From: Treponema sp.
GTDB taxonomy: Bacteria > Spirochaetota > Spirochaetia > Treponematales > Treponemataceae
Direction of reading: 5' to 3'
Length of the DNA stretch: 61,193 nt
Assembly: GCA_016290335.1 (NCBI GenBank)
Contig: JAEETM010000011.1
Location: 1 to 61,193, forward strand
Part shown: piece after piece, positions 4,340 through 32,375 of the stretch
How positions within the stretch are numbered: position 1 is the first letter of the stretch
Layout: every line of letters starts with the position of its first letter
Translations under genes and position numbers: made by a program
The notes under the pieces: generated by a model
What the model was told of the DNA's origin: nothing
Database searches by the model: none
Seen by the model: the letters and a program-made list of their open reading frames with translations, nothing else

Positions 4340-4396
4340 AAAAAATAAAAGGCAAAGTTGTCCCGTGTTTTCCACCACAAAGACTTCTTTGCCTTT
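4340..4396 (-). terminator. Leader terminator (attenuator) of purA-glmS
   Basis: On the minus strand AAAGGCAAAG (from 4396) pairs with CTTTGCCTTT, with further pairing inside, and is followed by a T-rich run (4340-4346). It sits 22 nt before the purA start, so it would end transcription before the gene unless prevented. Confidence 0.75.
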
Positions 4397-4433
4397 GCTT
4401 TTTGAATTTACTTACTTTCACTAAGTGTGTCAA
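4379..4433 (-). promoter_or_regulatory. Promoter and ANTAR-type hairpin of purA
   Basis: The -35 box TTGACA (4428-4433) and the -10-like box TAAATT (4405-4410) are 17 nt apart. Eight nt further on is the hairpin AAAGGC-AAAGAA-GTCTTT (4379-4396), whose six-base loop has A1 and G4 as known ANTAR RNA targets do. It uses the same bases as the 5' arm of the terminator at 4340-4396, so the two folds exclude each other. Confidence 0.7.
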
Positions 4434-4447
4434 GTTGAGTAATTTTT

Positions 4448-6148
4448 TTAATCCTGCAAAGCCTCATAGCCTTCTTCGCCGGTACGAACCTTTACAACAT
4501 TCTGAACATCGTATACGAAAATCTTACCATCGCCGATGTTACCAGTGTAAAGAACTTCCTTAGCGGCTGTGATAACCAGGTCTACAGGAACTTCACTCAC
4601 TACGATGTCGACCTTAATCTTAGGCAGGAGGGTCATATCCATCTCAACACCACGATACTTCTGTGTATTACCGTGCTGCTGGCCGCAACCAAGAACGTTT
4701 GTAACTGTCATACCAGTAACACTTATGTCGTTCATAGCAGCCTTGAGCTCGTCGAACTTGCTCTGGCGTGTAATGATTGTAACCATATGGAACTTTGCAT
4801 CCGGACGTTCTGTAGCTTTTGTAACTGGAACAGCCTTTTCTACAGGAACACTGCCTGCTGCAGTTGAACTTACAGCACTTGCACCACCTACTCCAGCTGC
4901 GCCTTCTGTCATTACCTGAGGAGCCATGATAAAGCCTGCGTAGCTTGAATCAATACCGTGCTCAAGCTTATCAAGACCGATAATTTCTTCTTCCTTGCTT
5001 GCACGCAAACCATGTAATTTCTTAATAAGGCTGAAGGTAATAATCATACAAACTGTTGTCCAGGCTACGATTGTAAACTCACCAAGACACTGTACACCAA
5101 GATGCTTTACACCGCCACCATAGAACAAACCATTTTCTACGTTGAACAAACCATCACTCAAAGTACCCCAGATACCGTTTGCAAGGTGAACTGCTACAGC
5201 ACCAACCGGGTCATCAATGTGGAGCTTAAGGTCAAGGAACTCTACAACTAATACTACTATAATACCAGCTACAATACCAATGATAGTTGCACCAAGTGCG
5301 TCTACTGTAGCACAAGTTGGTGTAATTGCAACAAGACCTGCCAGGGAAGCGTTGAGTGTCATGGAAACATCAGGCTTACCGTTTTTAATCCAGGTAAAGA
5401 TCATTGTTGTAACACATGCAACTGCAGGAGCAATTGTTGTTGTTGTGAATACAGCAGCAAGACCGCCAACACCAAGTAACTGTGTACAGGCAGCACCGTT
5501 GAATCCGTACCATCCAAACCAGAGGATGAAGGTTCCCAAAGCACCCAGAGTCAGAGAGTGACCAGGAATAGCGTGAACCTTTGTTACCTTTCCGTTCTTG
5601 TCATAATCATATTTTCCAATACGTGGACCAAGGAACATAGCACCAATCAAAGCAGCTGTACCACCAACTGAGTGGATTGCAGCACCACCGGCAAAGTCTA
5701 CAAAACCAAGACCTACGAGCCAGCCCTGTGGGTTCCATACCCAACCAGCTTCAATCGGATAAACAACTGCAGAAATTACAGCTGAATAAATACAGTATGC
5801 ACTGAACTTTGTTCGCTCTGCCATAGAACCTGAAACGATTGTAGCAGCAGTAGCACAGAAAACCAGGTTGAACACAAAGCTGGACCAGTCAAGCTCTGCA
5901 AAGTTCGTAAACAACTGCATGTTAGGTTTGCCTATCAAACCAAAGAAATAGTTTTCACTCATCATCAGCCCGAATCCGAGCAGCATGAACATTGGCGTTC
6001 CAATACAGAAATCCATCAGGTTTTTCATGATGATGTTTCCAGCATTTTTTGCCCTTGTAAAACCCGTTTCTACCATTGCAAATCCACACTGCATAAAGAA
6101 TACCAGTGCCGCACCAATAAGGAACCAAACACTCCAAACTTCGCTCAT
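4448..6148 (-). CDS. amt-glnK: Ammonium channel fused to a PII (GlnK) signalling domain
   Basis: A 566-residue inner-membrane protein. Residues 1 to about 400 are an Amt/MEP channel with about 11 membrane segments, opening with the channel pore helix (SEVWSVWFLIGAAL) and containing the two pore histidines (IHSVGGTAAL and AVHLANGIWG). After a low-complexity Ala/Val/Pro linker, residues from about 455 form a complete PII domain (KFHMVTIITRQSKF... to DVQNVVKVRTGEEG). In most organisms AmtB and GlnK are separate, and GlnK plugs the pore. The T-loop keeps the first Tyr (KYRG), but the usual uridylylation Tyr in GAEY is Met here (GVEM), so uridylylation at that site seems impossible. The ATG at 6148 has AGGAGG 6 nt upstream; a GTG 8 codons earlier lies in a terminator stem and is rejected. 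Confidence 0.95.
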   Translation of the reverse strand: MSEVWSVWFLIGAALVFFMQCGFAMVETGFTRAKNAGNIIMKNLMDFCIGTPMFMLLGFGLMMSENYFFGLIGKPNMQLFTNFAELDWSSFVFNLVFCATAATIVSGSMAERTKFSAYCIYSAVISAVVYPIEAGWVWNPQGWLVGLGFVDFAGGAAIHSVGGTAALIGAMFLGPRIGKYDYDKNGKVTKVHAIPGHSLTLGALGTFILWFGWYGFNGAACTQLLGVGGLAAVFTTTTIAPAVACVTTMIFTWIKNGKPDVSMTLNASLAGLVAITPTCATVDALGATIIGIVAGIIVVLVVEFLDLKLHIDDPVGAVAVHLANGIWGTLSDGLFNVENGLFYGGGVKHLGVQCLGEFTIVAWTTVCMIITFSLIKKLHGLRASKEEEIIGLDKLEHGIDSSYAGFIMAPQVMTEGAAGVGGASAVSSTAAGSVPVEKAVPVTKATERPDAKFHMVTIITRQSKFDELKAAMNDISVTGMTVTNVLGCGQQHGNTQKYRGVEMDMTLLPKIKVDIVVSEVPVDLVITAAKEVLYTGNIGDGKIFVYDVQNVVKVRTGEEGYEALQD

Positions 6149-6161
6149 ATAAAACCTCCTG

Positions 6162-6180
6162 AAAAAGGCCACTGTGGCCT
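6162..6180 (-). terminator. Short palindrome with T run before amt-glnK
   Basis: AGGCCAC/GTGGCCT forms a 7+7 palindrome around a single base, followed on the minus strand by TTTTT and then the AGGAGG ribosome site. It could be a second, weak terminator, or it could tune access to the ribosome site. Confidence 0.5.
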
Positions 6181-6183
6181 TCC

Positions 6184-6240
6184 AAAAAAAATGGCGACAA
6201 TATCAAAACTACCTGCGCACTGTAGTTCGACATCATCGCC
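6184..6240 (-). terminator. Leader terminator of amt-glnK
   Basis: GGCGA at the start pairs with TCGCC, with extra pairing inside including AACTAC/GTAGTT, and eight T follow on the minus strand. The position, between the AT-rich upstream region and the gene, resembles the other attenuated leaders, but I could not find a six-base ANTAR-type loop here. Confidence 0.65.
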
Positions 6241-6354
6241 CTATATATTTTTTTTCAAAAAAAATTAAAAAAAATCAATATTATTTTTTTTGAGTGTCAT
6301 TCTATGGCACTCTGCCCTATTATAATTCACCTCATAAAGAATAACGAGGTGAAT

Positions 6355-6498: not shown

Positions 6499-6521
6499 TT
6501 ACATTATTTGCCTTACAGTTT

Positions 6522-8627
6522 TTATCTTACGCTATACAGCAAATCTCCGTAGCTTGGGAATGGCCACATATCTTTTGGTGTGATAACCTCAAGTTCATCG
6601 GCACATGCACGAAGCTCACCCATTGCAGCAAAAACCTTCTCGCGGTAGAACATTGAAATCTTGCTTGAATCTGCTCCACTTGCACTAAGTTCTTTTGCAT
6701 CAAGCACAGCCTTCTCCAGAGCACAAGTCTTTTTGTAAATAGAGCTTGTAAGTGAAGAAACCTTGCTGAGCATTTCGCTTTCATAAGTAGCTTCAGGCTC
6801 ACCAACAGATTTTTTCAAACCGATAGTTCCAGCTAACGTTGTAGCGTATTTACTTGCAACCGGCAGAATATCTTTCTTTGCCATTTCAAGCATTGTTTCT
6901 GCTTCAATGTTGATGATCTTTGCATAATTCTCGTTGTGAATCTCAAAGCGGCTTTCAAGTTCAACCTTGCTGTAAACACCAAACTTTTCAAAGACCTTAA
7001 CGTTCTTTTCATCAAGGATATGTGGTAAAGCTTCCGGTGTAGATTTAAGGTTGTAAAGTCCACGCTTTTCAGCTTCCTTAACCCAGGAATCATCATAACC
7101 ATTTCCATTGAAAATGATTCTCTTATGCTCTTTAATTGTCTTCAAAATCAAGTCGTGAAGAGTTGCCTTAAAGTCTTTTGCTTTTTCAAGAGTATCAGCA
7201 AACTGACTGAGCTCTTCTGCAACAACTGTGTTTAAGAAAACGTTTGCACACGCAATTGATTCATTTGAACCCAGCATACGGAACTCAAACTTATTACCGG
7301 TAAAGGCAAATGGTGAAGTTCTGTTTCGGTCTGTTGTATCTTTGCTGAACTCAGGAAGAACAGTAACACCAATCTGCATTTTTTCTTTTTCGTGCTTGCC
7401 GTAAGGAAGGCCCTTTTCAATGCTGTCAAGAATGCCGCTCAATTCATCTCCAAGGAAGATTGAAATGATTGCTGGAGGCGCCTCGTTAGCTCCAAGACGA
7501 TGATCGTTTCCGGCAGAAGCTACAGAAATACGCAGCAAATCCTGATACTCATCAACACCTTTAATTACAGCACACAGGAACAAAAGGAACTGTGCATTGC
7601 TTTCTGGAGTTGCACCAGGATCAAGCAGGTTTTTACCAGTGTTAGTACTGATTGACCAGTTGTTATGTTTACCGCTTCCGTTTACACCTGCAAAAGGTTT
7701 TTCGTGGAGCAGACAAACCATTCCATGTTTAGAAGCAATCTTGCGGAGCATTTCCATTGTAAGCTGGTTGTGGTCGCAGGCAATGTTTGTTGTACTGAAG
7801 ATAGGAGCTAACTCATGCTGAGCAGGAGCAACTTCGTTATGTTCTGTTTTTGCCAGGATTCCAAGCTTCCAGAGCTCGCGGTTCAAATCTTTCATGAACT
7901 CCTGAACACGTGGTTTAATCATACCAAAGTAATGATCTTCAAGCTCCTGACCTTTTGGTGCTTTTGCGCCGAAAAGTGTACGGCCTGTATAAATCAAGTC
8001 TTCACGTTTATCATAAACTGATTTGTCAACAAGGAAGTATTCCTGTTCAGGACCAACAGTCGTTTTTACGCTTGTAACGGCTTCGTTTCCTTCAAACAAT
8101 TTAAGTACACGAACAGCCTGTTTGCTGATTGCCTGCATTGAGCGGAGCAGCGGTGTTTTTTTATCAAGAGCTTCACCTGTATAAGAACAGAAAGCTGTAG
8201 GAATACAAAGTGTTCCATCTTTAATAAATGCATAGCTTGTTGGATCCCAGGCTGTATAACCGCGGGCTTCGAATGTTGCACGGATTCCACCACTTGGGAA
8301 GCTAGAAGCATCAGGTTCACCCTGCACAAGCTCTTTTCCACTGAACTCCATGATTACACGTCCACCGTCTACAGGCTCAATAAAGCTGTCGTGTTTTTCA
8401 GCTGTAATACCTGTAAGAGGCTGGAACCAGTGTGTATAATGAGTTGCACCCTTTTCAACTGCCCAGTCTTTCATTGCATTTGCAACAACTGTAGCAACAG
8501 AAGAATCAAGTTTTTCTCCACCCTGAATTGTCTTCATCAACTGCTTATAAGTTTCCTTTGGCAGTCTTGCTTTCATAACTGTTTCATTAAAAACATTTTC
8601 ACCAAAAATGTCGCTTACCTGTTCCAT
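6522..8627 (-). CDS. glnN: Glutamine synthetase type III
   Basis: A 701-residue type III glutamine synthetase, which makes glutamine from glutamate, ammonia and ATP. Its length and motifs are those of the GlnN family rather than the ~440-residue type I: an N-terminal extension (about 1-120), the core with [24 protein letters not shown] and [10 protein letters not shown], and a long C-terminal helical part. The ATG at 8627 has AAGGAG 7 nt upstream; the frame is open further upstream, but that part is leader sequence. The leader has a near-consensus promoter and two tandem ANTAR-type hairpin/terminator modules. The window has a second, type I enzyme at 18699, so the cell can switch between or combine the two. 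Confidence 0.96.
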
Positions 8628-8661: not shown

Positions 8662-8727
8662 AAAAAAATAGGCGCTGCCTTTCCTGAACCGTTGTACACC
8701 AGTTCATAAAAAGCAGCGCCGTTGCCG
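8662..8727 (-). promoter_or_regulatory. Second ANTAR-type hairpin/terminator module of glnN
   Basis: Hairpin CGGC-AACGGC-GCTG (8714-8727; loop with A1 and G4) overlaps the 5' arm of a terminator: GGCGCTGC (8713-8720 on this strand) pairs with GCAGCGCC (8671-8678), followed by a T run (8662-8668). Just upstream, 8733-8755 can form a separate 6-bp hairpin with a 5-nt loop. The module sits 35 nt before the glnN start. Confidence 0.72.
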
Positions 8728-8766: not shown

Positions 8767-8849
8767 AAAAAAGGTCGCAGAAATACCATTTCTGCGACCT
8801 CATTGTCGTTTGATGTTTTTGTTATACTGTTTCCAAAAAAAAATGTCAA
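8767..8849 (-). promoter_or_regulatory. glnN promoter and first ANTAR-type hairpin/terminator module
   Basis: TTGACA (8844-8849) and TATAAC (8821-8826) are 17 nt apart, an almost perfect sigma70 promoter. Twelve nt further on is the hairpin CGAC-AATGAG-GTCG (8795-8808; loop A1, G4). Its 3' side begins a perfect 13-bp terminator stem (8788-8800 with 8772-8784) followed by six T. Read-through of this terminator is needed before polymerase reaches the second module. Confidence 0.8.
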
Positions 8850-10976: not shown

Positions 10977-11076
10977 AAAAAAAGGCCATGAACATACATC
11001 CGAACCACCTCGGATTCACATTCACGGCCTCTTTGCCTGATAATTCATTTTTACCGATTAAGGCTCGTTTTGTCAA
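10977..11076 (-). promoter_or_regulatory. dapF promoter and ANTAR-type leader with terminator
   Basis: TTGACA (11071-11076) and TAAAAA (11048-11053) are 17 nt apart. The hairpin GGC-AAAGAG-GCC (11026-11037), extended by three more pairs past one bulged base, has the A1/G4 loop. It overlaps the 5' arm of a long terminator (10984-11030) with seven T after it. The promoter lies back to back with the nadE promoter. Confidence 0.72.
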
Positions 11077-11112: not shown

Positions 11113-11223
11113 TTGACACAAAACGTCTAAAGAATTATAACTACTCTAATAATTTTATTAGTGAACAAAGGCGTTCATTCGATTAGAATAACTATTTTCT
11201 AATGGAGTGAGCGCCTTTTTTTT
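11113..11223 (+). promoter_or_regulatory. nadE-carAB promoter and ANTAR-type leader with terminator
   Basis: TTGACA (11113-11118) and TATAAC (11136-11141), spaced by 17, form a near-consensus promoter. A first hairpin, CTAAT-AATTTT-ATTAG (11146-11161), has a six-base loop with A1 but no G4. Directly after it is GTGAAC-AAAGGC-GTTCAT (11161-11178), with A1 and G4. The second hairpin overlaps a terminator (11169-11216) followed by eight T. This is the leader most like the classic two-hairpin ANTAR target. Confidence 0.78.
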
Positions 11224-16277: not shown

Positions 16278-16386
16278 TTGACATCTCAACGCGAAAAGCA
16301 TAAAATATAATATAGTTTTTTTGAGCAAAGGCGCTCATTCGATTTAACGACTTATTGTCGCTAAGTGGAATGGGCGCCTTTTTTTT
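16278..16386 (+). promoter_or_regulatory. Promoter and ANTAR-type leader of the ykgJ-pyrG-glnA-ANTAR unit
   Basis: TTGACA (16278-16283) and TAAAAT (16301-16306) are 17 nt apart. The hairpin TGAGC-AAAGGC-GCTCA (16322-16337) has the A1/G4 loop and overlaps a terminator (16329-16378) followed by eight T. Because the ANTAR gene is the last of this unit, the regulator would control its own transcription. Confidence 0.78.
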
Positions 16387-17053: not shown

Positions 17054-17082
17054 TTTATCATAATAAAAAAGGAGATTTGAAG

Positions 17083-19919: not shown

Positions 19920-20486
19920 ATGGAAGCAGACAGTCACAGCATTTTGCTGGTTTCTCGCGACAGTAAAATAATTTCTCAAATGTCGGTATTTCTTGTACCA
20001 CCGTTGTTCGAGTTAACTACAACAAGTGACTTTAACGAAGCACGCCGTCTTGCAGCAGAAAGAACCTTCAATATAATCATTGCAGATTCAGGTGATGGCT
20101 TTGATACAGACTTTGCGATTAATGTTGCAGATTCTTATTCAACCGTGCTGCTCTTAGTTCCAAACGAACATTTTGACGAAATCTCTTACAGGGTAGAAGG
20201 TTATGGTATCCTTACAATTACAAAACCTTTTGAGCCCTTCTATTTTTACAACATGATAAAGATTGCAATTGCAGTTCAGTACAAGGTGCAGATTCTTTCC
20301 AGCCAGACAACAAAGCTTAAAGTTAAGATGGAAGAAATCAAGCTTGTAAACCGCGCTAAAATGCTTTTAATTTCAAACCTTAATATGAGTGAATCAGAGG
20401 CCCATCACTATCTTGAAAAAGAAGCAATGGACCGCGGATTAAAGCGAACAGCAGTTGCCGAAGAAATCTTAAAAACTTACGGATAA
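19920..20486 (+). CDS. ANTAR-domain RNA-binding antitermination regulator
   Basis: A 188-residue protein. Residues 1 to about 120 are a receiver-like domain with a candidate phosphoacceptor Asp (IIIADSG, near 56) and the conserved Lys (ITKPFEP, near 102), though the acidic pair near the start is not typical. A coiled-coil linker follows, then an ANTAR domain at about 128-184 with the key alanines and aromatic spacing (NRAKMLLISNLNMSESEAH, then AMDRGLK and VAEEIL). ANTAR proteins bind six-base-loop hairpins in nascent RNA and stop terminators from forming. This is the only such protein seen in the window, while seven transcription units carry candidate targets. The start is 3 nt after the glnA stop. 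The signal (phosphate, or contact with glutamine synthetase or PII) is unknown. Confidence 0.92.
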   Translation: MEADSHSILLVSRDSKIISQMSVFLVPPLFELTTTSDFNEARRLAAERTFNIIIADSGDGFDTDFAINVADSYSTVLLLVPNEHFDEISYRVEGYGILTITKPFEPFYFYNMIKIAIAVQYKVQILSSQTTKLKVKMEEIKLVNRAKMLLISNLNMSESEAHHYLEKEAMDRGLKRTAVAEEILKTYG

Positions 20487-21926
20487 TTAAACAGGATATT
20501 CACCGCAGAAGCAGCCTTTACAGAATCCGCAGGAAGCTTTATCTCCACACATTTCAAGAGCCTCAAGCATTCCTTCAAGAGAAATAAAAGCAAGTGAATC
20601 TGCTCCAATTTCTTTGCGGATTTCTTCAAGTTCATGCGTACTTGATATTAATTCTCCCTTACTTGGTGTATCTATTCCTAAATGACATGGGAACTTAACC
20701 GGTGGCGAGCTTACACGGAAATGAACTTCCTTTGCTCCTGCCCTTCTTAAAATCTGAACAAGGCGACGGCTTGTAGTTCCACGGACGATTGAATCATCAA
20801 TTACAACAACACGTTTATTGCGTAAATCATTTGCTATTGCGTTGAGCTTTACAAAAACCATTGCTTCGCGTTCCGCCTGAGTTGGTGCAATAAATGTTCG
20901 TCCAATATATTTATTTTTTACGATTCCCGTTACATAAGGAATACCGCTTGCGCGTGCATAACCTATTGCCGCTCCAATGCCACTGTCTGGCACTCCAATT
21001 ACAACGTCAGCTGCAATCTTACTTTCGCGGGCTAAAACCTCACCCATTCTGTAGCGTGCTTCCTGAACCGGGATTCCATCAATTTCGCTGTCCGGGCGTG
21101 CAAAATAAACATACTCAAAAATGCAGGTCTGTTTTTTTATTTCCGCATAGCTTACAGAACGAAGTCCGTCTTTATCTATAAAAACAATTTCACCTGGAGC
21201 AATATCACGGATAATTGTTCCGTTAACAGCATCGATTGCACAGGATTCAGAAGCTAAAATATAGCCGTTATTTATTTTTCCTATACAAAGTGGTCTGATT
21301 CCATTCGGGTCACGAATTGCAATAAGGCTGTTCTGAGTCATAATGCAAAGTGCAAAGGAACCTTTTATCTGACGGGCGGTTTCAACTATTGCTTCTTCAA
21401 AAAGCTTTTTGTTTTCCGCATAATTCTCATTCAAGCTGTGACCGGGCTTTCCACCCTTTTCTATAAACTCACGGACAATCAGTTTTAAAATAACTTCACT
21501 ATCGCTTGAAGAACTGAACGTACTGCCTGAATCTTCCAGTAGAGAACGAAGCTCTGTATGATTTACAAGCTGCCCGTTATGAGCAAGTGCAATTGAACCA
21601 AACTTATAAGTGTTTAAAAACGGCTGGGCATTTTCGATTGTTCTACCGCCGGCAGTTGCATAACGCACATGACCAACTGCAATACTTCCTTTGAGCTGTT
21701 CCAGATGTTCTTTTTTAAAAACATCGCTTACAAGACCCATGCCTTTATGCAGGTTTATTTTTCCGTCAGTGTTTCCATCAGCGGCTTTAAGGGTTGTATC
21801 GCTTACTGCAATGCCTGCACTTTCCTGGCCGCGATGCTGTAAGGCAACAAGTCCATAATAAGTTAAAGTTGCAGCATTATCTGCACCGTAAATACCGACA
21901 ACGCCACATTCATCACGAAAGCCCAT
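20487..21926 (-). CDS. purF: Amidophosphoribosyltransferase
   Basis: A 479-residue enzyme that starts purine synthesis by making phosphoribosylamine from PRPP and glutamine. The class II glutaminase Cys is residue 7 (MGFRDECGVVG), so a short propeptide must be removed, as in Bacillus-type PurF. The phosphoribosyltransferase motif VVVIDDSIVRGTT lies near 365. The C-terminus has a cysteine cluster (ASCGFCKGCFCGEY) of the kind that holds the [4Fe-4S] centre in that subgroup. It is the last gene of the gltB-gltD-purF unit, 3 nt after gltD, and converges with the ANTAR gene with no gap. Confidence 0.96.
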   Translation of the reverse strand: MGFRDECGVVGIYGADNAATLTYYGLVALQHRGQESAGIAVSDTTLKAADGNTDGKINLHKGMGLVSDVFKKEHLEQLKGSIAVGHVRYATAGGRTIENAQPFLNTYKFGSIALAHNGQLVNHTELRSLLEDSGSTFSSSSDSEVILKLIVREFIEKGGKPGHSLNENYAENKKLFEEAIVETARQIKGSFALCIMTQNSLIAIRDPNGIRPLCIGKINNGYILASESCAIDAVNGTIIRDIAPGEIVFIDKDGLRSVSYAEIKKQTCIFEYVYFARPDSEIDGIPVQEARYRMGEVLARESKIAADVVIGVPDSGIGAAIGYARASGIPYVTGIVKNKYIGRTFIAPTQAEREAMVFVKLNAIANDLRNKRVVVIDDSIVRGTTSRRLVQILRRAGAKEVHFRVSSPPVKFPCHLGIDTPSKGELISSTHELEEIRKEIGADSLAFISLEGMLEALEMCGDKASCGFCKGCFCGEYPV

Positions 21927-21929
21927 TTT

Positions 21930-23495
21930 TTACTTTGCTCCATTCAATAAAAATGAATCAATCTGTCTGGCACATTCACGACCTTCTGTAATTGCCCATA
22001 CAACAAGTGACTGTCCGCGATGCATATCTCCGGCTGTAAATACTTTTGGAACGCTTGTAGCATAACCGTTCGGGCTTGCACTTTCAGGGGTTTCATTACC
22101 AATGGAAGAAACTGTTCCGCGAGGACCAAGTTCTGTACCGAAAGCCTGTGCTGTATATTCTTCGCAGCCAACAAAACCGGCGGCAACTAAAAGTAAGTCA
22201 CATGGAATTGTTTTTTCAGTTCCTTCACGTTCAACAAGCTGACGTTTTCCGTCTATCATTTTGAACTCAACCTCTACTGTCCGGACAGCAGTCAGATGTC
22301 CATTTTCGCTGAATACTTCTTTAACAGTTGTTTCATAAACACGTGGATCGTGGCCAAACTTGGCAATACTTTCTTCTGCACCGTAATCAACCTTTAAGGT
22401 TTTAGGCCACTGCGGCCACGGATTATTTGCGGCACGTTCAATAGGAGGACAAGGCATCATTTCTATCTGAGTAACACTTGAAGCACCAAGGCGAATTGCA
22501 GAACCGCAGCAGTCGTTTCCTGTGTCACCGCCACCAACAATCACTACATTTTTACCGGCAACTTCAATCCCGTATTTTTCAACAAGGCTTGCGGCAATCT
22601 GTTCGTTAGTTGTAACTACACCGATTTTTTCCAGAGCTTCGTTAGTCTGAACTACACACTTTGTTACAGCTTTAAGAAAATCAACGGCAAACATAACTTC
22701 TTTAAGTCCATCTATTCCTTTTGCTGTAAGTGCCCTGGCTTTTTTTGCACCGCAACATAAAGCAATTGCATCATAATCAGAAAGAAGCTTATCAGCAGCA
22801 ACTCCATGTCCAACATCAGCATTAAAAATAAACTCAACGCCTTCTGCTTTCATAAGATCTACACGTCGCTCTATGATTTTTTTGTCGAGCTTCATGTTAG
22901 GAATACCATACATCAAAAGTCCGCCGGCTTTATCTTCACGTTCAAAGACTGTAACACTATGTCCGCGGCGATTAAGCCAGTCTGCAACAGCAAGTCCGCT
23001 TGGACCGGAACCTACAACAGCAACTTTTTTACCGCTGCGGTGTGCAGGAATCTGAGGCTTCATATAACCGGTTTCAAATGCTTTTTCTATTATATAAAGC
23101 TCGTTATCGTGAACTGTTACAGCGCCTTCGCCGACAACAGGGCTTCCACAGTTGCAGGCTTTTTCACAGAGAGCCGGACACACACGACCGGTGAACTCAG
23201 GGAAGCTTGAAGTTTTCAAAAGTCTCCAGGCTGCCATATCAAACTGACCGTTATAAAGTGCATCGTTCCATTCAGGAATATAATTGTGGAGCGGGCAGCC
23301 GGTAACCATTCCGGCAAGCTTGATTGCACTCTGACACATTGGAACACCGCAGTTCATACAACGCGCTGCCTGTTCACGACGGGCGGCTTCATCAAGCTTT
23401 GGATGAAACTCCTTAAAGTTTTTTATTCGTTCCAGCGGCGGAACATTTCCATTTTCAATTCGACTATATTTCATAAATCCTGTTGGCTGACCCAT
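21930..23495 (-). CDS. gltD: Glutamate synthase small subunit
   Basis: A 521-residue flavoprotein that passes electrons from NADPH to GltB. The N-terminal cysteine motif (AARCMNCGVPMCQ, then CPLHNYIP and GRVCPALCEKAC) holds two Fe-S clusters. An FAD-binding GSGPSGLAVA lies near 160 and an NADPH-binding VGGGDTGNDC near 310; a final FAD motif is FTAGDMHRGQSLVVWAI. AGGAGG lies 8 nt before the ATG. It is 27 nt after gltB and 3 nt before purF. Confidence 0.97.
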   Translation of the reverse strand: MGQPTGFMKYSRIENGNVPPLERIKNFKEFHPKLDEAARREQAARCMNCGVPMCQSAIKLAGMVTGCPLHNYIPEWNDALYNGQFDMAAWRLLKTSSFPEFTGRVCPALCEKACNCGSPVVGEGAVTVHDNELYIIEKAFETGYMKPQIPAHRSGKKVAVVGSGPSGLAVADWLNRRGHSVTVFEREDKAGGLLMYGIPNMKLDKKIIERRVDLMKAEGVEFIFNADVGHGVAADKLLSDYDAIALCCGAKKARALTAKGIDGLKEVMFAVDFLKAVTKCVVQTNEALEKIGVVTTNEQIAASLVEKYGIEVAGKNVVIVGGGDTGNDCCGSAIRLGASSVTQIEMMPCPPIERAANNPWPQWPKTLKVDYGAEESIAKFGHDPRVYETTVKEVFSENGHLTAVRTVEVEFKMIDGKRQLVEREGTEKTIPCDLLLVAAGFVGCEEYTAQAFGTELGPRGTVSSIGNETPESASPNGYATSVPKVFTAGDMHRGQSLVVWAITEGRECARQIDSFLLNGAK

Positions 23496-23522
23496 TTTGT
23501 GCGCCTCCTGAGTTTCTTTTTT

Positions 23523-26500
23523 TTATGCACTGCATTTCTTAAAAGCAGCAAGCACGGCTTCATCGTGTTCTATACCAGCTTTTTCCTGAGCCGCTATTTC
23601 TGTTTTAATTTTTAGATAATCGTTCGGGATTATTTTTTTGAAGCAGGTTTTATAGTAGTCCCAATCCGTTAGTATTGCCTTACCACGTTCGCTGCCAGTT
23701 TCTGCCACATGCTGTTCAATAAGTGAATGGAGAGTTGCTTCATCTGTTGTATCCTGTAATGTTGTTACTTCATCATCAAGAGCATACATTTTTACAAGCT
23801 CGTGGTTCATACGTTTATACAAATCATGATTTTCATCAAGAACATAGGCAATACCACCGCTCATACCGGCACACAGGTTTTTGCCTGTTCCACCAAGAAT
23901 TACAGCAGTTCCACCAGTCATATATTCAAGACCATGGTCACCGCAGCCTTCGGCTACAACTGTTGCACCGGAGTTTCGTACACAGAAGCGTTCACCGGCA
24001 ACACCGTTTATAAAGGCAGTTCCGCTTGTTGCACCAAACAAGGCAACATTTCCAACGATTATATTACTGTCGGCTTTTCCTTCAAAGCTTGCCGGTTTTT
24101 TAATAACAAGCTTTCCTCCGCTCAAGCCCTTTCCAAATGCATCGTTTGCATCGCCGGTAAGACGTAAAGTAAGACCGCGTGGAATAAAGGCACCAAAGCT
24201 CTGACCTGCACCACCTGTGAAGTTTACAGTATAAGAATCGTCAGCTAATGTGTTGCCGTATTTCTTCTGGATTTCACTTCCAAGAATTGTTCCAACAGTT
24301 CGGTCTGTTGATTGAATACCAATTGCAGCACCGGGGGCGATACGGGGGTGTCCCCCGTTAGAAGGGGTAGGTTGCAACGTAGTGCAACCGAGGGATTTTT
24401 TATCGTTCAAACCAGAAAAAATAGTCCACTGGACTGTTTTTTCTGGTTTGTTCGAGTCTATAATTTCCCCTCCTAAAACTTCTGGAATCAGAGTTCTTAA
24501 ATCGATTGTCTTTTCCAGCTTAAAGTCAAACAGAGAGCGGTCTTTCTTCCACTCACTATCTTCTGCAACACCTGCAAGAACTCTGCTCATATCTACAAGA
24601 CCGGCCCGTTTAAATCCCTGCTTATCTTTGAGCTTGAGTAAATCTGTTCTACCACACATTTCTTCTACGCTATGAACACCAAGCTTTGCCATTATTTCGC
24701 GCATTTCCTGTGCAATAAACTTCATAAAGTTTTCTACATATTCAGGCTTTCCAGGGAACTTAGCACGAAGCTTTTCGTTTTGTGTTGCAACTCCAAAAGG
24801 ACAGGTGTCGAGCTGGCAGACACGCATCATTGAACAGCCCATTGAAATAAGAGGAGCTGTAGCAAATCCAAACTCTTCTGCACCGAGCAAAGCTGCAATT
24901 GCAACATCACGGCCGCTCATAAGCTTTCCATCTGTTTCAAGAACAACACGACCACGCAAGCCGTTCTGAATCAAAGTCTGGTGAGTCTCAGCTAACCCGA
25001 GCTCCCAAGGTAAGCCCGCATGATGAATTGAACTTATAGGAGCTGCACCAGTTCCGCCATCGTGACCTGAAATCAAAATTACCTGAGCACCGGCTTTTGC
25101 AACACCGGCAGCAATTGTACCAACGCCTGCTTCACTTACAAGCTTTACACTTATTCGTGCAGCACGGTTTGCATTTTTCAAATCGTAGATAAGCTGAGCA
25201 AGATCTTCAATTGAATAAATATCGTGATGAGGTGGAGGTGAAATCAAAGCAACACCAGGAGTTGCATAACGTGTTTTTGCAATCCATGGATAAACCTTTT
25301 TACCTGGCAGGTGTCCGCCTTCACCTGGCTTTGCACCCTGAGCCATTTTAATCTGAATCTCGTTTGCACTGAGAAGATATTCTTCCGTTACACCAAAACG
25401 TCCACTTGCAACCTGTTTGATTGCACTGTTATATTCTGTTCCAAGTCGTTCAGGTTTTTCTCCACCTTCTCCACTGTTTGATTTTCCGTGAAGATGATTC
25501 ATTGCGGCAGCCATACATTTGTGGGCTTCTTCGCTGATTGAACCATAAGACATGGCACCTGTTTTAAAACGCTGAACAATAGATTCAACACTTTCGACCT
25601 GCTCAATCGGGATTCCGCCGTCTTTAGCAAAATCAAAATCAAGCATTGCTCGTAAAGTGTGTGGATGCTCGTTAGAATCAACTAACGCGGTGTATTCCTT
25701 AAAGCGGGCATAATCACCATTACGGGTTGCTTCCTGAAGTGCAACAATTGTTTCTGGATTATAAAGATGACTTTCTGCCTGAGGTCCGCGACGGAACTTA
25801 TGTTTTCCAAAAGAATCAAGATGTGTATTTACTGTAAGACCTGCAGGATCAAAGCCCTGGTCGTGATGATAGCGGACATCTTCTTCAATTTCTTTTAGTC
25901 CGATTCCACCAACACGGCTGACTGTATTTGTAAAATATTTTTCTGTAACATCGGCAGCAATTCCAACTGCTTCAAAAATCTGGGCACTCTGGTAAGACTG
26001 TATTGTGGAGATACCCATCTTTGCGGCAATTTTTACAATACCGTTTATTACAGCCTTATTGTAATCGTCAATTGCTGTGTGATAATCCTTATCCAGAAGC
26101 TTCTGGTCAATAAGTTCGGCAATTGCTTCGTGTGCAAGATATGGATTGATTGCACGGGCACCGTAACCAAGACACATTGCAGCCTGATGAACATCGCGGA
26201 CTTCTGCAGTTTCAAGAATGATAGAAACAGCGGTACGTTTTTTTGTTCTGATTAAATGCTGTTCGACGGCACTAACAGCAAGAATTGCAGGAATGGCAGC
26301 GTGAGTTTTGTCTACACCGCGGTCGCTTAGGATGATGATGTTGTAGCCTTCAGTATAAGCTGCATCAATTTGTGCAAAGAGATTATCAATTGCTGCTTCC
26401 AGATTTGTTTCAAATAAAATGCTGATTGTTTTTGCTTTTAATCCGGGCTGATTGAGTGCGGCAATTTTTATAAGGTCTGTTCCTGTTAAGATTGGATTAT

Positions 26501-28193
26501 TGATTTCGAGAACGCGGCAGTTTTTAGCAGCCGGTTCAAGAAGGTTTCCATCCTTACCAACATAAACAGTTGTGTCTGTAACAATTTTTTCGCGCAGGCT
26601 GTCAATCGGAGGATTTGTAACCTGAGCAAAAAGCTGTTTGAAATAACTGAAAAGGCTTGGATGCTTTTCGCTCATTACGGCAAGAGGAGTATCAACACCC
26701 ATACTTGCGGTTGGCTCTACACCATTGCGTGCCATTGGAAGAATCATTTCATTTACATCTTCGTAATTCCAGCCAAAAGCACGGTACATAATGTCGCGTT
26801 CATCCTGTGTAAATACAGGGATTTTTTTATTCGGAATCTTAAGGTCTGCAAGATGAATAAGATTCATATCAAGCCATTCGCCATAAGGATAAGCGGCGGC
26901 ATACTGAGCTTTACATTCTTCATCTGAAATTATTTTTTTCTGAACTGTATCAACAAGTAAAATGCGGCCAGGCTGCAGACGGGATTTTATTTTTATATTT
27001 TCTTCAGGAATATCAAGAACTCCAACTTCGGAGCTGAGAATGAGCATGTTATCTTTTGTGATGTAGTAGCGGCTTGGTCTGAGTCCGTTTCGATCGAGTG
27101 TTGCACCAAGAAGGTCACCATCACTGAAAAGAATTGCAGCTGGTCCGTCCCAGCTTTCCATCATAGTTGCCCAGTAATGATAGAAATCTTTTTTATTCTG
27201 AGCCATGTTGCTGTCATGCTTCCACGGTTCAGGAATACACATCATAACTGCGAGTGGAAGAGGAACTCCGTTCATCAAAAGGAACTCAAGCGTATTATCG
27301 AGCATTGCTGAATCAGAACCGGTTGTATCAACTGCAGGAAGAACCTTCTGCATCTGTTCTTTGTTAAGTTTGGTAGAACTAACAGTTTCTTCACGGGCAA
27401 GCATACGGTCAACGTTTCCTCGGATTGTATTGATTTCGCCGTTATGTGCAATAAAGCGGTTTGGATGGGCACGCTGCCAGCTAGGCTGAGTATTTGTAGA
27501 AAAGCGTGAATGAACAATTGCAAGACTTGAAACATATTCATCAGACTGTAAATCGCTGTAGAAGGTACGGAGCTCGTGAACAAGGAACATTCCTTTGTAA
27601 ACTATTGTACGGCTGCTCAAAGAACAGACATAAGTTTTTGCACTGTGTGTATTGCAGGCTTTTTCGAACTCTCGTCGTAATACATATAACTTTCTGTCAA
27701 AGTCCAGTCCTTTTTCGCAGGCTGCCGGACGTTCAATAAAACACTGCCAGATTTGAGGCATACAATCACGTGCTTTTTTACCAAGAACATCGGCATTTAC
27801 AGGAACCTTACGCCAGCCAAGAAGCTTAAGTTTTTCTGAATCACAACATTTCTCAAATCGTGCTTTTTCTGCTTCATAAGACACTGCAGGGAAGAAAAAC
27901 ATTCCTATACCATAATCACGCTCATCACCAAGCTTTTTACAAACCTCACCTTTAGAACTTACAATCTCACCACGCGCAGCTGCTCCCTTAAAAAAATCGT
28001 GGCTTATTTGAATCAGAATACCAACGCCATCACCTGTTTCACCGCTTGCATCTTTTCCTGCACGGTGTTCAAGTTTTTCTACTATGCTCAAAGCGTTATC
28101 AACAATTTTGTGAGTTTTCGTTCCGTCAATATTTACAACCGCACCGATACCGCAATTGTCATGTTCAAAGCCTGGCTCATACAATGTTTTCAT
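23523..28193 (-). CDS. gltB: Glutamate synthase large subunit
   Basis: A 1556-residue enzyme that makes two glutamates from glutamine and 2-oxoglutarate. The nucleophile Cys is residue 14 (FEHDNCGIGA) after a short propeptide. Next come the class II glutaminase domain (to about 420), the central domain, the FMN/Fe-S synthase domain (GEGGEKPERLG; SMGCSMMRVCQLDTCPFGVATQ) and the C-terminal beta-helix (NFTGGAGQSFGAF). GGAG lies 6 nt before the ATG at 28193; 20 upstream codons are leader. An odd stretch near residues 1250-1290, just before STDRTVGT, is encoded by three palindromes (24341-24450) and looks like in-frame inserted repeat sequence. The leader carries two ANTAR-type modules. Confidence 0.97.
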   Translation of the reverse strand: MKTLYEPGFEHDNCGIGAVVNIDGTKTHKIVDNALSIVEKLEHRAGKDASGETGDGVGILIQISHDFFKGAAARGEIVSSKGEVCKKLGDERDYGIGMFFFPAVSYEAEKARFEKCCDSEKLKLLGWRKVPVNADVLGKKARDCMPQIWQCFIERPAACEKGLDFDRKLYVLRREFEKACNTHSAKTYVCSLSSRTIVYKGMFLVHELRTFYSDLQSDEYVSSLAIVHSRFSTNTQPSWQRAHPNRFIAHNGEINTIRGNVDRMLAREETVSSTKLNKEQMQKVLPAVDTTGSDSAMLDNTLEFLLMNGVPLPLAVMMCIPEPWKHDSNMAQNKKDFYHYWATMMESWDGPAAILFSDGDLLGATLDRNGLRPSRYYITKDNMLILSSEVGVLDIPEENIKIKSRLQPGRILLVDTVQKKIISDEECKAQYAAAYPYGEWLDMNLIHLADLKIPNKKIPVFTQDERDIMYRAFGWNYEDVNEMILPMARNGVEPTASMGVDTPLAVMSEKHPSLFSYFKQLFAQVTNPPIDSLREKIVTDTTVYVGKDGNLLEPAAKNCRVLEINNPILTGTDLIKIAALNQPGLKAKTISILFETNLEAAIDNLFAQIDAAYTEGYNIIILSDRGVDKTHAAIPAILAVSAVEQHLIRTKKRTAVSIILETAEVRDVHQAAMCLGYGARAINPYLAHEAIAELIDQKLLDKDYHTAIDDYNKAVINGIVKIAAKMGISTIQSYQSAQIFEAVGIAADVTEKYFTNTVSRVGGIGLKEIEEDVRYHHDQGFDPAGLTVNTHLDSFGKHKFRRGPQAESHLYNPETIVALQEATRNGDYARFKEYTALVDSNEHPHTLRAMLDFDFAKDGGIPIEQVESVESIVQRFKTGAMSYGSISEEAHKCMAAAMNHLHGKSNSGEGGEKPERLGTEYNSAIKQVASGRFGVTEEYLLSANEIQIKMAQGAKPGEGGHLPGKKVYPWIAKTRYATPGVALISPPPHHDIYSIEDLAQLIYDLKNANRAARISVKLVSEAGVGTIAAGVAKAGAQVILISGHDGGTGAAPISSIHHAGLPWELGLAETHQTLIQNGLRGRVVLETDGKLMSGRDVAIAALLGAEEFGFATAPLISMGCSMMRVCQLDTCPFGVATQNEKLRAKFPGKPEYVENFMKFIAQEMREIMAKLGVHSVEEMCGRTDLLKLKDKQGFKRAGLVDMSRVLAGVAEDSEWKKDRSLFDFKLEKTIDLRTLIPEVLGGEIIDSNKPEKTVQWTIFSGLNDKKSLGCTTLQPTPSNGGHPRIAPGAAIGIQSTDRTVGTILGSEIQKKYGNTLADDSYTVNFTGGAGQSFGAFIPRGLTLRLTGDANDAFGKGLSGGKLVIKKPASFEGKADSNIIVGNVALFGATSGTAFINGVAGERFCVRNSGATVVAEGCGDHGLEYMTGGTAVILGGTGKNLCAGMSGGIAYVLDENHDLYKRMNHELVKMYALDDEVTTLQDTTDEATLHSLIEQHVAETGSERGKAILTDWDYYKTCFKKIIPNDYLKIKTEIAAQEKAGIEHDEAVLAAFKKCSA
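24341..24450. repeat. Composite palindromic insertion inside gltB
   Basis: Three palindromes lie in a row within the coding region: ACGGGGG/CCCCCGT (24342-24358), GGTTGCA/TGCAACC with a 6-nt loop (24370-24389), and a 43-nt near-perfect palindrome with 21-nt arms that match at 20 positions (24408-24450). The reading frame stays open through all of it. The encoded stretch is rich in Gly, Pro, Ser and Thr, unlike the conserved flanks. Confidence 0.75.
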
Positions 28194-28203
28194 GTTCAGC
28201 TCC

Positions 28204-28266
28204 AAAAAAAGCAAAGAAACCGCGCACACAGAAAAACAGCGAACTGCATGCACGGCCCCTTTGCCG
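28204..28266 (-). promoter_or_regulatory. Second ANTAR-type hairpin/terminator module of gltB
   Basis: Hairpin CGGC-AAAGGG-GCCG (28253-28266; loop A1, G4) overlaps a terminator of about 21 bp including several G-T pairs (outer arms GCAAAG 28259-28264 and CTTTGC 28211-28216 on this strand), followed by seven T (28204-28210). The gltB ribosome site follows at once. Confidence 0.72.
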
Positions 28267-28286: not shown

Positions 28287-28382
28287 AAAAAGGTCGTAGA
28301 CATAATTTCGTTAACTGAAACTATATCTACGACCTCTTTGCCGTATTTAATTAATAGTACAAAAATTAAGTGGAACTGTCAA
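28287..28382 (-). promoter_or_regulatory. gltB promoter and first ANTAR-type hairpin/terminator module
   Basis: TTGACA (28377-28382) and TACTAT (28354-28359) are 17 nt apart. The hairpin ACGGC-AAAGAG-GTCGT (28329-28344) follows after 9 nt and is identical to the one before asnB. It overlaps a terminator whose arms AGGTCGTAGA and TCTACGACCT are perfect, with further pairing inside and five T after (28287-28291). Confidence 0.8.
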
Positions 28383-30353: not shown

Positions 30354-30493
30354 TTTTAAATCTCCAGCAATCAAAATATTCCCGCATAATTGAGTGCTTT
30401 AATTATGACACATTTTTTTCAAGAAATAAACCTCTTGATTGAGGAGAAAAATGAATTGAATTGTTCAGCTTACCTTAGTAGATTTAGTATGCT

Positions 30494-32251
30494 TTAGTAT
30501 GCCTTGTCGTGAACTCCGGCAATTGCGCGTCCGCTAGGCTCGTCCATGTTCTTCCAGGCGGCATCCCATTCAAGAGCTTTTGCAGTTGAGCAGGCAACTC
30601 CAGCTTCGTGTGGAACAACTCTGGCAGCACTGTCGCTTGGGAAAAGACGGCTGTAGATTTCGCGGTAATAGTATTCCTCTTTTGTTTTTGGAGGATTTAC
30701 CGGGAAGCGGTTTTCACGGCGGGCAAACTCTGCATCGCTCACTTTTTCTTCTGTCATCTTTTTGAGAGTGTCAATCCAGCTGTAACCAACACCATCACTG
30801 AACTGCTCTTTCTGACGCCAGCAGATTGATTCTGGAAGCATGTCTTCAAATGCTTTTCGCAGAATCCATTTTTCCATACGCTGCTTACCGTCACCCAAAC
30901 GGATATTCATTTTATCAGTAGGATTTAAGCCCATTGCAACATCAATAAAATCTTTATCAAGGAAAGGAACACGACCTTCTACACCCCAGGCCATAAGAGA
31001 CTTGTTTGCACGCAGACAGTCATAAAGATGAAGCTTGCTCATTTTTCTTACAAGCTCTTCGTGGAACTCCTGTGCACTCGGTGCTTTGTGGAAGTACAGG
31101 TAACCGCCAAAAAGCTCGTCGCTGCCTTCGCCGCTGAGAACCATTTTGATTCCCATAGATTTTATTACGCGTGCAAGAAGATACATTGGGGTGCTGGCAC
31201 GAACAGTTGTTATATCATAAGTTTCAATATGATAAATTACATCAGGCAGGGCATCCAGGGCTTCCTGAATTGTAAAGTGAACTTCGTGATGAACTGTACC
31301 GATGTAGTCAGCAGCTTTTTTTGCAGCAATCAAATCTGGAGAACCTTCCAGGCCAACTGCAAAGGAATGGAGCTGTGGCCACCAGGCGGCTTCACGGCTG
31401 TCGGTTTCTACACGCTTTTTGCTGTACTTTTGTGTAACGGCAGCAATGATTGAAGAATCAAGTCCTCCACTCAAAAGAACACCGTAAGGAACATCACTCA
31501 TAAGCTGTGATTTTACGGCAGCTTCAAGTCCGTTTCGAACTTTTTCTATTACACTCGGATTGATTACTTCGCCTTTTTCATCTGTTGCACGTGGAGCAGC
31601 TTTAACTGCATCATAAGATTCCCAGTCGCGTTTGTACCAGCGGTCAACCTTTCCATCCTTACTCCACAAATAACTTCCGTTAGGGAACTCTTCTATTGTA
31701 ACACAGTCTCCTTCAAGTGCCTTGAGCTCACTTGCAACATAATAACGTCCGGATTTATCCCAACCCTGATAAAGTGGAATTACACCAATTTCATCGCGGC
31801 CAATAAGATAAGCATCGCGTTCTGAATCGTAAAGTGCAAATGCAAAAATACCGGAAAGCTTTTCTATCATTTCTGCAAAGCTGCCACCTTCTGCAAGACA
31901 TTTTTTATAAAGCGGAATTATAACTTCGCAGTCGCTCTGTGTGCGGAAGTTGTAAGTTCCGGCAAACTCAGCCCTTATTGCTTTGTGATTATAGATTTCG
32001 CCGTTTACTGCAAGAATAATTTTTTCGTCATCGCTGACTAAAGGCTGTTTACCTGAAAGAGGGTCAACAATTGCAAGTCGTTCGTGACTTAAGATTGCAT
32101 TTTCACCCGTATAAACACCGCTCCAATCCGGTCCACGGTGACGGATTCTTTTACTCATTTCCAGAACCTGAGCCCGCAGCTCTTCCTTCAATCCTTCTGC
32201 AATTGGCTGACTGCCACTATTTAAGTCGAATGCTCCAACAAAACCACACAT
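30494..32251 (-). CDS. asnB: Asparagine synthase (glutamine-hydrolysing), class B
   Basis: A 585-residue enzyme that makes asparagine from aspartate, ATP and glutamine. It begins MCGFVGAFDL, so Cys2 is the glutaminase nucleophile, and the class II domain (RHRGPDWSG, SHERLAIVDP, NGEIYNH) runs to about 210. The synthetase domain has the P-loop SGGLDSS near 270 and SGEGSDELFGGY near 375. AGGAGG lies 6 nt before the ATG; 48 upstream in-frame codons lie in the leader. It has a single ANTAR-type leader of its own. Confidence 0.97.
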   Translation of the reverse strand: MCGFVGAFDLNSGSQPIAEGLKEELRAQVLEMSKRIRHRGPDWSGVYTGENAILSHERLAIVDPLSGKQPLVSDDEKIILAVNGEIYNHKAIRAEFAGTYNFRTQSDCEVIIPLYKKCLAEGGSFAEMIEKLSGIFAFALYDSERDAYLIGRDEIGVIPLYQGWDKSGRYYVASELKALEGDCVTIEEFPNGSYLWSKDGKVDRWYKRDWESYDAVKAAPRATDEKGEVINPSVIEKVRNGLEAAVKSQLMSDVPYGVLLSGGLDSSIIAAVTQKYSKKRVETDSREAAWWPQLHSFAVGLEGSPDLIAAKKAADYIGTVHHEVHFTIQEALDALPDVIYHIETYDITTVRASTPMYLLARVIKSMGIKMVLSGEGSDELFGGYLYFHKAPSAQEFHEELVRKMSKLHLYDCLRANKSLMAWGVEGRVPFLDKDFIDVAMGLNPTDKMNIRLGDGKQRMEKWILRKAFEDMLPESICWRQKEQFSDGVGYSWIDTLKKMTEEKVSDAEFARRENRFPVNPPKTKEEYYYREIYSRLFPSDSAARVVPHEAGVACSTAKALEWDAAWKNMDEPSGRAIAGVHDKAY

Positions 32252-32264
32252 AACGTGCCTCCTG

Positions 32265-32374
32265 AAAAAAAAGAGGTCGTAGATACAACCCCTGTACGGA
32301 AACCGCACAAGAATAATATCTACGACCTCTTTGCCGTTAAAATATTTATACTTCAAATGATGTGAAAAAGTCAA
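32265..32374 (-). promoter_or_regulatory. asnB promoter and ANTAR-type leader with terminator
   Basis: TTGACT (32369-32374) and TATAAA (32345-32350) are 18 nt apart. The hairpin ACGGC-AAAGAG-GTCGT (32322-32337) follows after 7 nt. It overlaps a perfect 14-bp terminator stem (32272-32285 with 32317-32330) followed by eight T. The -35 box lies directly beside the end of repeat copy B. Confidence 0.8.
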
Positions 32375-32375
32375 T

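Follow-up and report, generated by a model that had tools for sequence, protein, structure and literature searches.

Single 5'-terminal hairpins as candidate targets of an ANTAR antiterminator in a predicted nitrogen regulon of Treponema

The DNA studied here is contig JAEETM010000011.1 of a Treponema sp. assembly (GCA_016290335.1), positions 1 to 61,193 of the forward strand, and "the window" denotes this whole stretch of 61,193 nucleotides. Between positions 4,340 and 32,374 it carries genes that mostly use glutamine or ammonia, a gene for a protein with an ANTAR domain, and leaders with small hairpins whose loop of six bases (hexaloop) fits AANGRN. The original prediction, made from the sequence alone, listed nine such hairpins in seven leaders, each sharing bases with the 5' arm of a strong terminator, and proposed a nitrogen regulon controlled by ANTAR-type antitermination. 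The principal genes and the hairpins are given below, with expectation values (E) from the hairpin model R1 described further on.

4448..6172, minus strand: Amt-PII fusion; its leader has terminators and no AANGRN hairpin, while homologues elsewhere have one
6522..8627, minus strand: glnN, type III glutamine synthetase (GS), with Pfam domains GSIII_N, Gln-synt_C and Gln-synt_C-ter; start codon placed by eye, the listed open reading frame (ORF) extending to 8699
17029..18675, plus strand: pyrG (CTP synthase), in the operon of glnA and the ANTAR gene; named in the original prediction, with homologues behind 27 of 173 surveyed sites
18699..19916, plus strand: glnA, similar to type I GS (GSI), 405 aa, 3 nt upstream of the ANTAR gene
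19920..20486, plus strand: ANTAR protein, 188 aa, Pfam ANTAR (PF03861) 2.6e-15
20487..28253, minus strand: gltB-gltD-purF; purF and gltD by NCBIfam, gltB named in the original prediction and with homologues behind sites
4379..4396, minus strand: purA leader, putative antiterminator hairpin, loop AAAGAA; terminator ~4348-4396; missed by R1
8795..8808, minus strand: glnN leader hairpin 1, loop AATGAG; terminator next, U tract to ~8767; E = 6.6e-4
8714..8727, minus strand: glnN leader hairpin 2, loop AACGGC; terminator to ~8662 with an apical GUGUACAA loop; E = 0.95
11026..11037, minus strand: dapF leader hairpin, loop AAAGAG; terminator to ~10978; E = 0.19
11160..11179, plus strand: nadE-carA-carB leader hairpin, loop AAAGGC; terminator to ~11223; E = 3e-12, in the training set
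16322..16337, plus strand: leader hairpin of the operon CxxCxxCC protein/pyrG/glnA/ANTAR, loop AAAGGC; terminator to ~16387
28328..28345, minus strand: gltB leader hairpin 1, loop AAAGAG; terminator to ~28283; E = 1.5e-12, in the training set
28253..28266, minus strand: gltB leader hairpin 2, loop AAAGGG; terminator to ~28205; E = 0.18
32322..32337, minus strand: asnB leader hairpin, loop AAAGAG; terminator to ~32267; E = 3.8e-11, outside the training set

All nine hexaloop hairpins are present in the leaders to which they had been assigned. Their stems measure 3-7 bp, a somewhat wider range than the 3-6 bp first given, and the overlapping terminator lies over the scan threshold at eight of the nine sites; the strong terminator claimed ahead of purA falls below it. 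A scan of both strands of the whole window for an AANGRN hexaloop on a stem of at least 3 bp, sharing bases with the 5' arm of a terminator, returned nine matches, namely eight of these sites and an alternative register at asnB. The purA hairpin was recognised by eye (AAAGGC-AAAGAA-GUCUUU, 4396-4379, minus strand), as was the use of its 5' arm and loop, and not its 3' arm, by the weaker terminator of this leader. By eye, the purA leader of genome G089 (locus L165) has a matching layout, behind a TATAAC -10 box. PurA of the window (3044-4378, minus strand) is 86% identical to PurA of this genome and 38-43% identical to that of 11 other genomes searched, and to judge by these identities it looks like a different PurA lineage.

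Hairpin and intrinsic terminator are mutually exclusive by prediction. Predicted folding energies of eight window units range from -22.8 to -42.9 kcal/mol for the whole fold and from -3.5 to -6.4 kcal/mol for the hairpin alone, and the median distance from the start of the loop to the last base of the terminator is 54 nt. Every stacked unit in the glnN and gltB leaders of the window has its own terminator. Run without filters on the window, R1 had ten matches with E <= 1 and none of them outside the predicted leaders (eight are units, and two lie on the complementary strand of such units), and it scored 70.9 bits (E = 4.5e-16) on the leader of the CxxCxxCC protein/pyrG/glnA/ANTAR operon, which is outside its training set. 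Leaders of dapF with a hairpin site also occur in other genomes. Searching the window leaders in Rfam recovered no family; there were four matches at E <= 5, of which only a tRNA was above cut-off.

Loop and stem tests were performed on the window and 80 relatives of the ANTAR locus, the closest ANTAR relative among the 80 genome loci kept being 88% identical and derived from a Treponema metagenome-assembled genome. A scan free of the loop rule, in which any hexaloop on a stem of at least 4 bp over a terminator preceding an ORF was accepted, gave 158 sites, many of them orthologous and hence not independent. The first loop base is A (A1) in 116 of these and the fourth is G (G4) in 125; at least 107 fit AANGRN, and the commonest loops are AAAGAG (39), AAAGGC (36) and AAAGAC (13). 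The loop is thus recovered in leaders of related species, as the original prediction implies. When no stem is demanded, 147 of 202 terminators of the leader type have AANGRN; among the remaining intergenic terminators 48 of 186 do. Flanks of the leader motif form a stem of at least 4 bp in 87 of 147 cases at loop size 6; with loops of 3-5 or 7-10 bases the count is 0-4 of 147. Of 92 unique leader arm pairs 38 have at least 4 pairs, where permuted arms give 8.35 on average and 16 at most. At the other intergenic terminators such stems are found in 5 of 48 cases (among unique arms 5 of 46, where permutation gives 1.2, a slight excess).

Pairing was also assessed on 100 distinct 18-mers taken with no stem rule. 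Paired cells make up 64.2%, against 45.8% in shuffled and 30-45% in slid alignments, percentages that, like the stem counts at leader terminators above, are underestimates because the register picker took a shifted AANGRN in some rows (e.g. AACGGC ahead of AAAGAG) and these rows were kept. The covariation score is 0.440, compared to 0.195 shuffled and at most 0.201 slid, and 144 cells are changed on both sides against 75.5 shuffled, with 0 of 500 shuffles as high. Two-sided change is seen in all six pairs, a count which is uninformative since shuffles give 5.9. The RNAalifold consensus of 53 whole units, preselected for a stem of at least 3 bp, is the hairpin, and the closing pair is C-G in 171 of the 173 sites of the survey described below. 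The arms covary and pair at loop size six; the original prediction held that pairing rather than stem sequence is kept.

These results bear on an origin of the loops as a by-product of bidirectional terminators, in which a G-rich 5' arm preceded by an A tract would yield AAAGRN with no protein involved. Such an origin agrees with the position of the last loop bases, which in most units open the terminator 5' arm, with the A tract that mirrors the U tract, and with the 48 AANGRN occurrences, five of them with a stem of at least 4 bp, at the other intergenic terminators. The upstream 5' arm, however, lies outside most terminators and yet pairs in a manner specific to loop size six, and neither arm covariation, nor the near-constant closing pair, nor the restriction of strong R1 matches to ANTAR-encoding genomes (see below) is expected from it. 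Size-six-specific pairing in leaders largely rejects this origin, which we consider highly improbable.

Promoters were searched in 104 distinct leaders as TTGACA and TATAAT at a spacing of 16, 17 or 18, with a score of at least 9/12. A -35/-10 match was found in 83 of 104 leaders (18.2 when shuffled), and in 78 of 104 (8.7 when shuffled) the -10 box starts 28-15 nt before the loop. Predicted transcription starts fall 4-14 nt before the loop, near the stem foot, in 76 of the 83. Since the promoter ends at the hairpin foot in most leaders, the hairpin should be the 5' end of the transcript. The ANTAR element as published has two hairpins, of which P1 is the upstream one. Within 44 nt upstream, another hairpin with an A1-G4 hexaloop was detected in 3 of 153 distinct leaders, against 1.5-1.65 in shuffled sequences, which is chance level. 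The detector recovers 133, 126 and 153 of 153 known hairpins at its three stringencies, the last figure by construction, as the hairpins were preselected for a stem of at least 3 bp. Double units lie 56-144 nt apart (15 pairs). By their sequence, the leaders are not the published element, having a single 5' hairpin and missing P1. As ordinary ANTAR targets, the hairpins hold up with regard to the six-base loop with A1 and G4 and the terminator overlap; P1 and the short linker are not there.

It could still be argued that the element is an ordinary dual-hairpin one, with P1 degenerate or located farther upstream. The three characterised targets treated in PMC3369931 and PMC3369936, those of EutV, AmiR and NasR, have two hairpins, and some Treponema leaders do carry two. 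In the eut genes of Enterococcus faecalis the linker between hairpins is 5-12 nt, linkers of 3 or 14 nt fail and deletion of P1 impairs induction (PMC3369931), whereas the Treponema double units have the much wider spacing given above. Furthermore, the first unit of the window glnN and gltB leaders has its own terminator, in 78 of 104 leaders the promoter reaches right up to the hairpin, and no clear excess of upstream hairpins exists. A hidden dual-hairpin element is, in our estimate, quite improbable.

A survey of sites in 120 loci, of which L081-L120 in part duplicate L001-L080, found 173 sites in 89 loci, with 153 of the 173 units distinct. An ORF follows 168 sites, and 164 of the 168 ORFs are homologues of the window set genes, a count that is neighbourhood-biased since most of the surveyed loci were chosen near ANTAR. 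Genes behind the sites are PyrG (27), GlnA (23), GlnN (23), CarA (17), GltB (17), AsnB (14), CarB (13), DapF (8), GltD (7), Amt-PII (7), PurF (6) and the CxxCxxCC protein (2), where the CarB and GltD labels denote the longest nearby ORF and a shorter first gene could be hidden. The gene set was tested genome-wide in three relatives, G238, which is absent from the R1 training contigs, and G004 and G007, which supplied loci to the model (L003, L044). At E <= 0.1 the three genomes have 23 matches, of which two fall opposite another match on the complementary strand, leaving 21 distinct sites. Window-gene homologues follow 20 of the 21 (GlnN 5, AsnB 3, GltB 3, CarA 2, DapF 2, and PyrG, PurF, GlnA, Amt-PII and GltD 1 each), which bears out the nitrogen gene set first proposed. 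Between E 0.1 and 1 there are eleven matches, two of them opposite-strand at known sites; six of the nine others have a locus, and none of the six precedes a window-gene homologue.

Some further sites and leader features were observed. The one whole-genome site with another type of gene (G007 C3:157261-157313, L156, E = 0.087) lies upstream of an ABC transporter ATPase, nitrate/sulfonate-like by eye. In the same genome a site at C2:109999-110060 (L149) precedes a second type III GS, 84.6% identical to the window GlnN. An AAAGGC hairpin unit in L028 (11865, plus strand) stands ahead of a lipoprotein whose start resembles, by eye, a urea/amino-acid ABC binding protein, possibly an extra regulon member. 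The leader of the window Amt-PII gene (6160-6250, minus strand) contains two strong terminator-like hairpins, and elsewhere in Treponema Amt-PII leaders carry AANGRN (7 sites). The apical GUGUACAA loop of the second glnN terminator, with its palindromic UGUACA, is kept in four sequences, all preceding glnN, and might serve as a kissing loop or offer another binding site. Its locations are as follows.

Window 8671-8719, minus strand: GUGUACAA loop
L012 18367, plus strand: GUGUACAA loop
L044 13648, minus strand: GUGUACAA loop
L072 13777, minus strand: GUGUACAA loop

Three other loci (L036 = L119, L051 and L061) have GGAGGACGCUCC in its place. Between asnB and the next gene (window 32375-32443) there is a long, near-perfect inverted repeat, probably a terminator, with a weak mir-242 match below cut-off.

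An ANTAR domain is encoded in 36 of 296 Spirochaetota genomes, the genome sets of the ANTAR and R1 searches being taken as identical from matching ids and counts. At E <= 1e-5, R1 matches 15 of the 36 ANTAR-encoding genomes and 0 of the 260 others (Fisher p = 9e-16), a contrast partly built in, as the training loci were selected for nearness to ANTAR. The genome search with a hairpin model that had been suggested as a check thus yields strong matches in 15 Spirochaetota genomes, all encoding ANTAR. The ANTAR gene is single in 7 of 8 genomes tested. Sites distant from it were found on another contig in G001 and about 0.8 Mb away in G238, both of which encode ANTAR. Among ANTAR-encoding genomes with no strong match, single A1-G4 look-alike hairpins, counted irrespective of terminator overlap or chance level, stand before glnA (L127, L129, L132), pyrG (L128, L130), glnN (L125) and amt (L124); several other genomes of this group have no clear hairpin. 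Another spirochaete (G044, L081) has two ANTAR domains, each in an open frame of greater length (409 and 275 aa), which probably represent other ANTAR architectures.

The ANTAR protein that had been noticed in one of the units scores 56.4 bits in Pfam, against a cut-off of 27.3. Its predicted structure consists of a receiver-like domain, a long helix and a three-helix ANTAR domain (predicted local distance difference test, pLDDT, 91.5), and the nearest folds in Foldseek are Rv1626, EutV and AmiR (EutV 6ww6 TMq 0.77, AmiR 0.64-0.67). In the register of a gap-free alignment, E158 and H162 are the positions which contact G4 (E160 and Y164 in EutV), M170 corresponds to M172, and H162 is His as in AmiR. 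RNA-contact positions are conserved among 34 homologues (E158 34/34, H162 33/34, M170 34/34, R145 33/34). Switch positions of the receiver are less regular, with a basic residue at position 13 in 27/34, Lys102 in 18/34 and Thr/Ser at position 80 in 13/34, and judging from these residues phosphorylation as a general switch is doubtful.

Another trans factor, or a ligand-binding RNA, might use the hairpins, the ANTAR gene being merely co-inherited. The ANTAR gene is in an operon with regulon genes, so linkage could yield part of the co-occurrence, and some terminators have conserved apical loops. Against this, A1, G4 and a conserved closing pair are what EutV requires (PMC3369931), the G4-contact positions are conserved, and the sites distant from the ANTAR gene are likewise in genomes that encode it. 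We consider this explanation unlikely.

Based on the loop rule, covariation, terminator overlap, whole-genome gene set and ANTAR co-occurrence, ANTAR-type antitermination is well supported. Specifically, we assign a probability of about 0.76 to one ANTAR protein controlling the Treponema nitrogen regulon by antitermination on a reduced target, a single AANGRN hexaloop with a C-G closing pair that is located at the start of the transcript and shares bases with the 5' side of an intrinsic terminator. The idea of such control in a spirochaete therefore stands in substance, with a different type of target, as there is no dual hairpin.

Several points weigh against this reading, apart from the choice of training loci mentioned above. 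In vivo, EutV needs both hairpins (PMC3369931, PMC8934654), and for NasR the binding of one hairpin takes about 12 uM (PMC7496416). A one-hairpin target would therefore need a tighter binder. With regard to the model, four of the nine window hairpins are strong, the first of glnN is weak, those of dapF, gltB (second) and glnN (second) are marginal and that of purA is missed. At E <= 0.01, R1 matches 17 genomes with ANTAR and also five without, the five being weak (23-28 bits), and the genome-wide search used filters that drop weak matches. The Treponema-trained R1 has no strong match in 21 of the 36 ANTAR-encoding genomes. Transcription starts are sequence predictions, the loosest P1 criterion gives 11 of 153 leaders against 6.7 expected, and two receiver residues, Asp56 (32/34) and Asp14 (28/34), are mostly kept in the ANTAR homologues, which leaves some room for phosphorylation.

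We have also considered the gene next to ANTAR, a partner missed in the original account of the regulon. In 99 of 104 loci glnA lies immediately upstream of the ANTAR gene; some of these 104 loci, as of the 89 GlnA proteins that follow, are one gene fetched twice (L036 and L138 are identical). In the window GlnA the E-flap Glu is replaced by Lys, Ser53 by Ala and Arg62 by Asn, the C-terminal thong is absent, and the score is below the NCBIfam GlnA cut-off (381.7 vs 429.15 bits). Among 89 ANTAR-adjacent GlnA of at least 380 aa, 80 carry Lys at the E-flap position, 7 carry Glu, 1 Asp and 1 Asn. Ser53 is replaced by Ala in 75 and Arg62 is found in only 1, while metal, ATP and glutamate positions are each kept in 85-89. 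We take the Ser53 numbering, the metal-ligand numbers and the residue roles to be those usual for the family. Beyond the last aligned helix the 80 Lys-type proteins have a median of 1 residue (maximum 11) and the seven Glu-type ones 9-36 residues; this stretch is 34 residues longer in the solved GSI chains 8ufj and 4lnf. Nine GlnA-like proteins in the loci that are not adjacent to a detected ANTAR have Lys (5) or Glu (4). In the GlnA tree, the 80 Lys-type rows and one Asp row form a clade of 81 with support 100/99; two very long rows (L121, L128) meet, and their position is unsure. In Bacillus subtilis GS, the catalytic E-flap glutamate, Glu304, touches bound glutamine and Arg62, shaping the surface read by GlnR, and thongs connect the two rings (PMC9249791).

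The replaced residues suggest that the ANTAR-linked GlnA is a pseudo-glutamine-synthetase sensor. We infer a protein that is inactive, binds ANTAR and senses nitrogen, GlnN (type III) being the likely working GS. It is also possible, at somewhat less than even odds, that GlnA is an ordinary active GS sharing the operon and that ANTAR is under kinase or PII control. Conserved metal and substrate residues favour an active enzyme, Asp56 of the receiver favours a kinase, and the Amt-PII fusion is in the regulon elsewhere. This is countered by the E-flap Lys, the near-general loss of Arg62, the missing thong of the Lys type, the score below the GlnA cut-off, the presence of GlnN as a supplier of GS activity and, for a kinase, the partly degenerate switch residues.

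Under control by the ANTAR protein, RNA polymerase would start at the hairpin foot and the hairpin would fold first, as the 5' end of the transcript. When ANTAR is absent, the longer terminator stem would invade the hairpin and the terminator would win by default. An active ANTAR dimer would hold the hairpin, the terminator could not form, and read-through would follow into glnN, gltBD-purF, carAB, pyrG-glnA-ANTAR, asnB, nadE, dapF, amt and purA. Two units in series, present in some leaders, may tighten control. Because the receiver is without parts of the phosphorylation switch, the signal would most likely pass through the neighbouring GlnA, in which ligand residues are kept and ammonia-handling and feedback residues changed. 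The mix of assimilation genes (Amt, GlnN, GltBD) and glutamine users (PurF, CarAB, PyrG, AsnB) would fit a common low-glutamine response. Tentatively, and with the chances below one half, a GS retired from catalysis would be the dedicated nitrogen sensor of an ANTAR antiterminator acting genome-wide on minimal 5'-terminal hairpins; the E-flap lysine may occupy the ammonium site, glutamate, glutamine or ATP would be read with no glutamine synthesis, and GlnA would release or activate the ANTAR dimer.

As far as sequence can tell, gut and rumen Treponema appear to switch a group of nitrogen genes via one RNA-binding protein and a single 5' hairpin per message. If this is true, spirochaetes would have a circuit for global control of nitrogen. 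A target that arises right where transcription starts could then do without the second hairpin of the classical ANTAR element. A natural regulon with single 5' hairpins would make the need for the second hairpin directly testable. The proposed sensor has a GS fold, with its catalytic glutamate replaced on a well supported branch. A literature search with several broad queries in openly licensed PMC papers recognised no spirochaete ANTAR target.

Among known systems, the gene order resembles glnA-nitR of solventogenic clostridia, where an ANTAR antiterminator for ammonia assimilation is linked to glnA, as it is in 99 of the 104 loci examined here. The clostridial GlnA is an active GS, probably unlike the altered Treponema protein. 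The nitR antiterminator of C. acetobutylicum is mentioned in PMC4676874. In the GS-GlnR and GS-TnrA pairs of Bacillus, a GS-family protein likewise serves as glutamine sensor for a regulator, with the E flap and D50 loop making most contacts; there, an active feedback-inhibited GS acts on a DNA-binding regulator (PMC9249791), whereas the Treponema regulator is an antiterminator that binds RNA, and its GS-like partner has an altered E flap. AmiC-AmiR (1qo0) also combines an ANTAR protein having an atypical receiver with a neighbouring ligand-binding controller, but AmiC is an amide-binding protein and not a GS, and the amiE leader has two hairpins where Treponema leaders have one.

Predicted ANTAR nitrogen regulons of Desulfotomaculum, Pelobacter and others similarly include several nitrogen units (glutamate synthase, GS, ammonium transporter, PII) with hairpins and terminators; they were found by a dual-hairpin model, unlike the single-hairpin Treponema sites (PMC3369931). 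The terms Treponema and Spiroch have no match in the main text of that paper. The closest likeness is to EutV and the eut leader of E. faecalis, with which Treponema shares the A1 and G4 hexaloop, the conserved closing pair, the mutual exclusion of hairpin and terminator, and an ANTAR protein that also has a receiver domain and a coiled coil. Phosphorylation switches EutV, which acts on two hairpins joined by a short linker (PMC3369931, PMC8934654), whereas the Treponema receiver is partly degenerate and its leaders have one 5' hairpin and no P1. The crystallised EutV dimer grips one hexaloop, and why two hairpins are needed was raised as a question, with a recruitment model proposed (PMC8934654). 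ANTAR antitermination itself is thus known, and new here is its proposed use of one 5'-terminal hairpin, together with a conserved GS-like partner.

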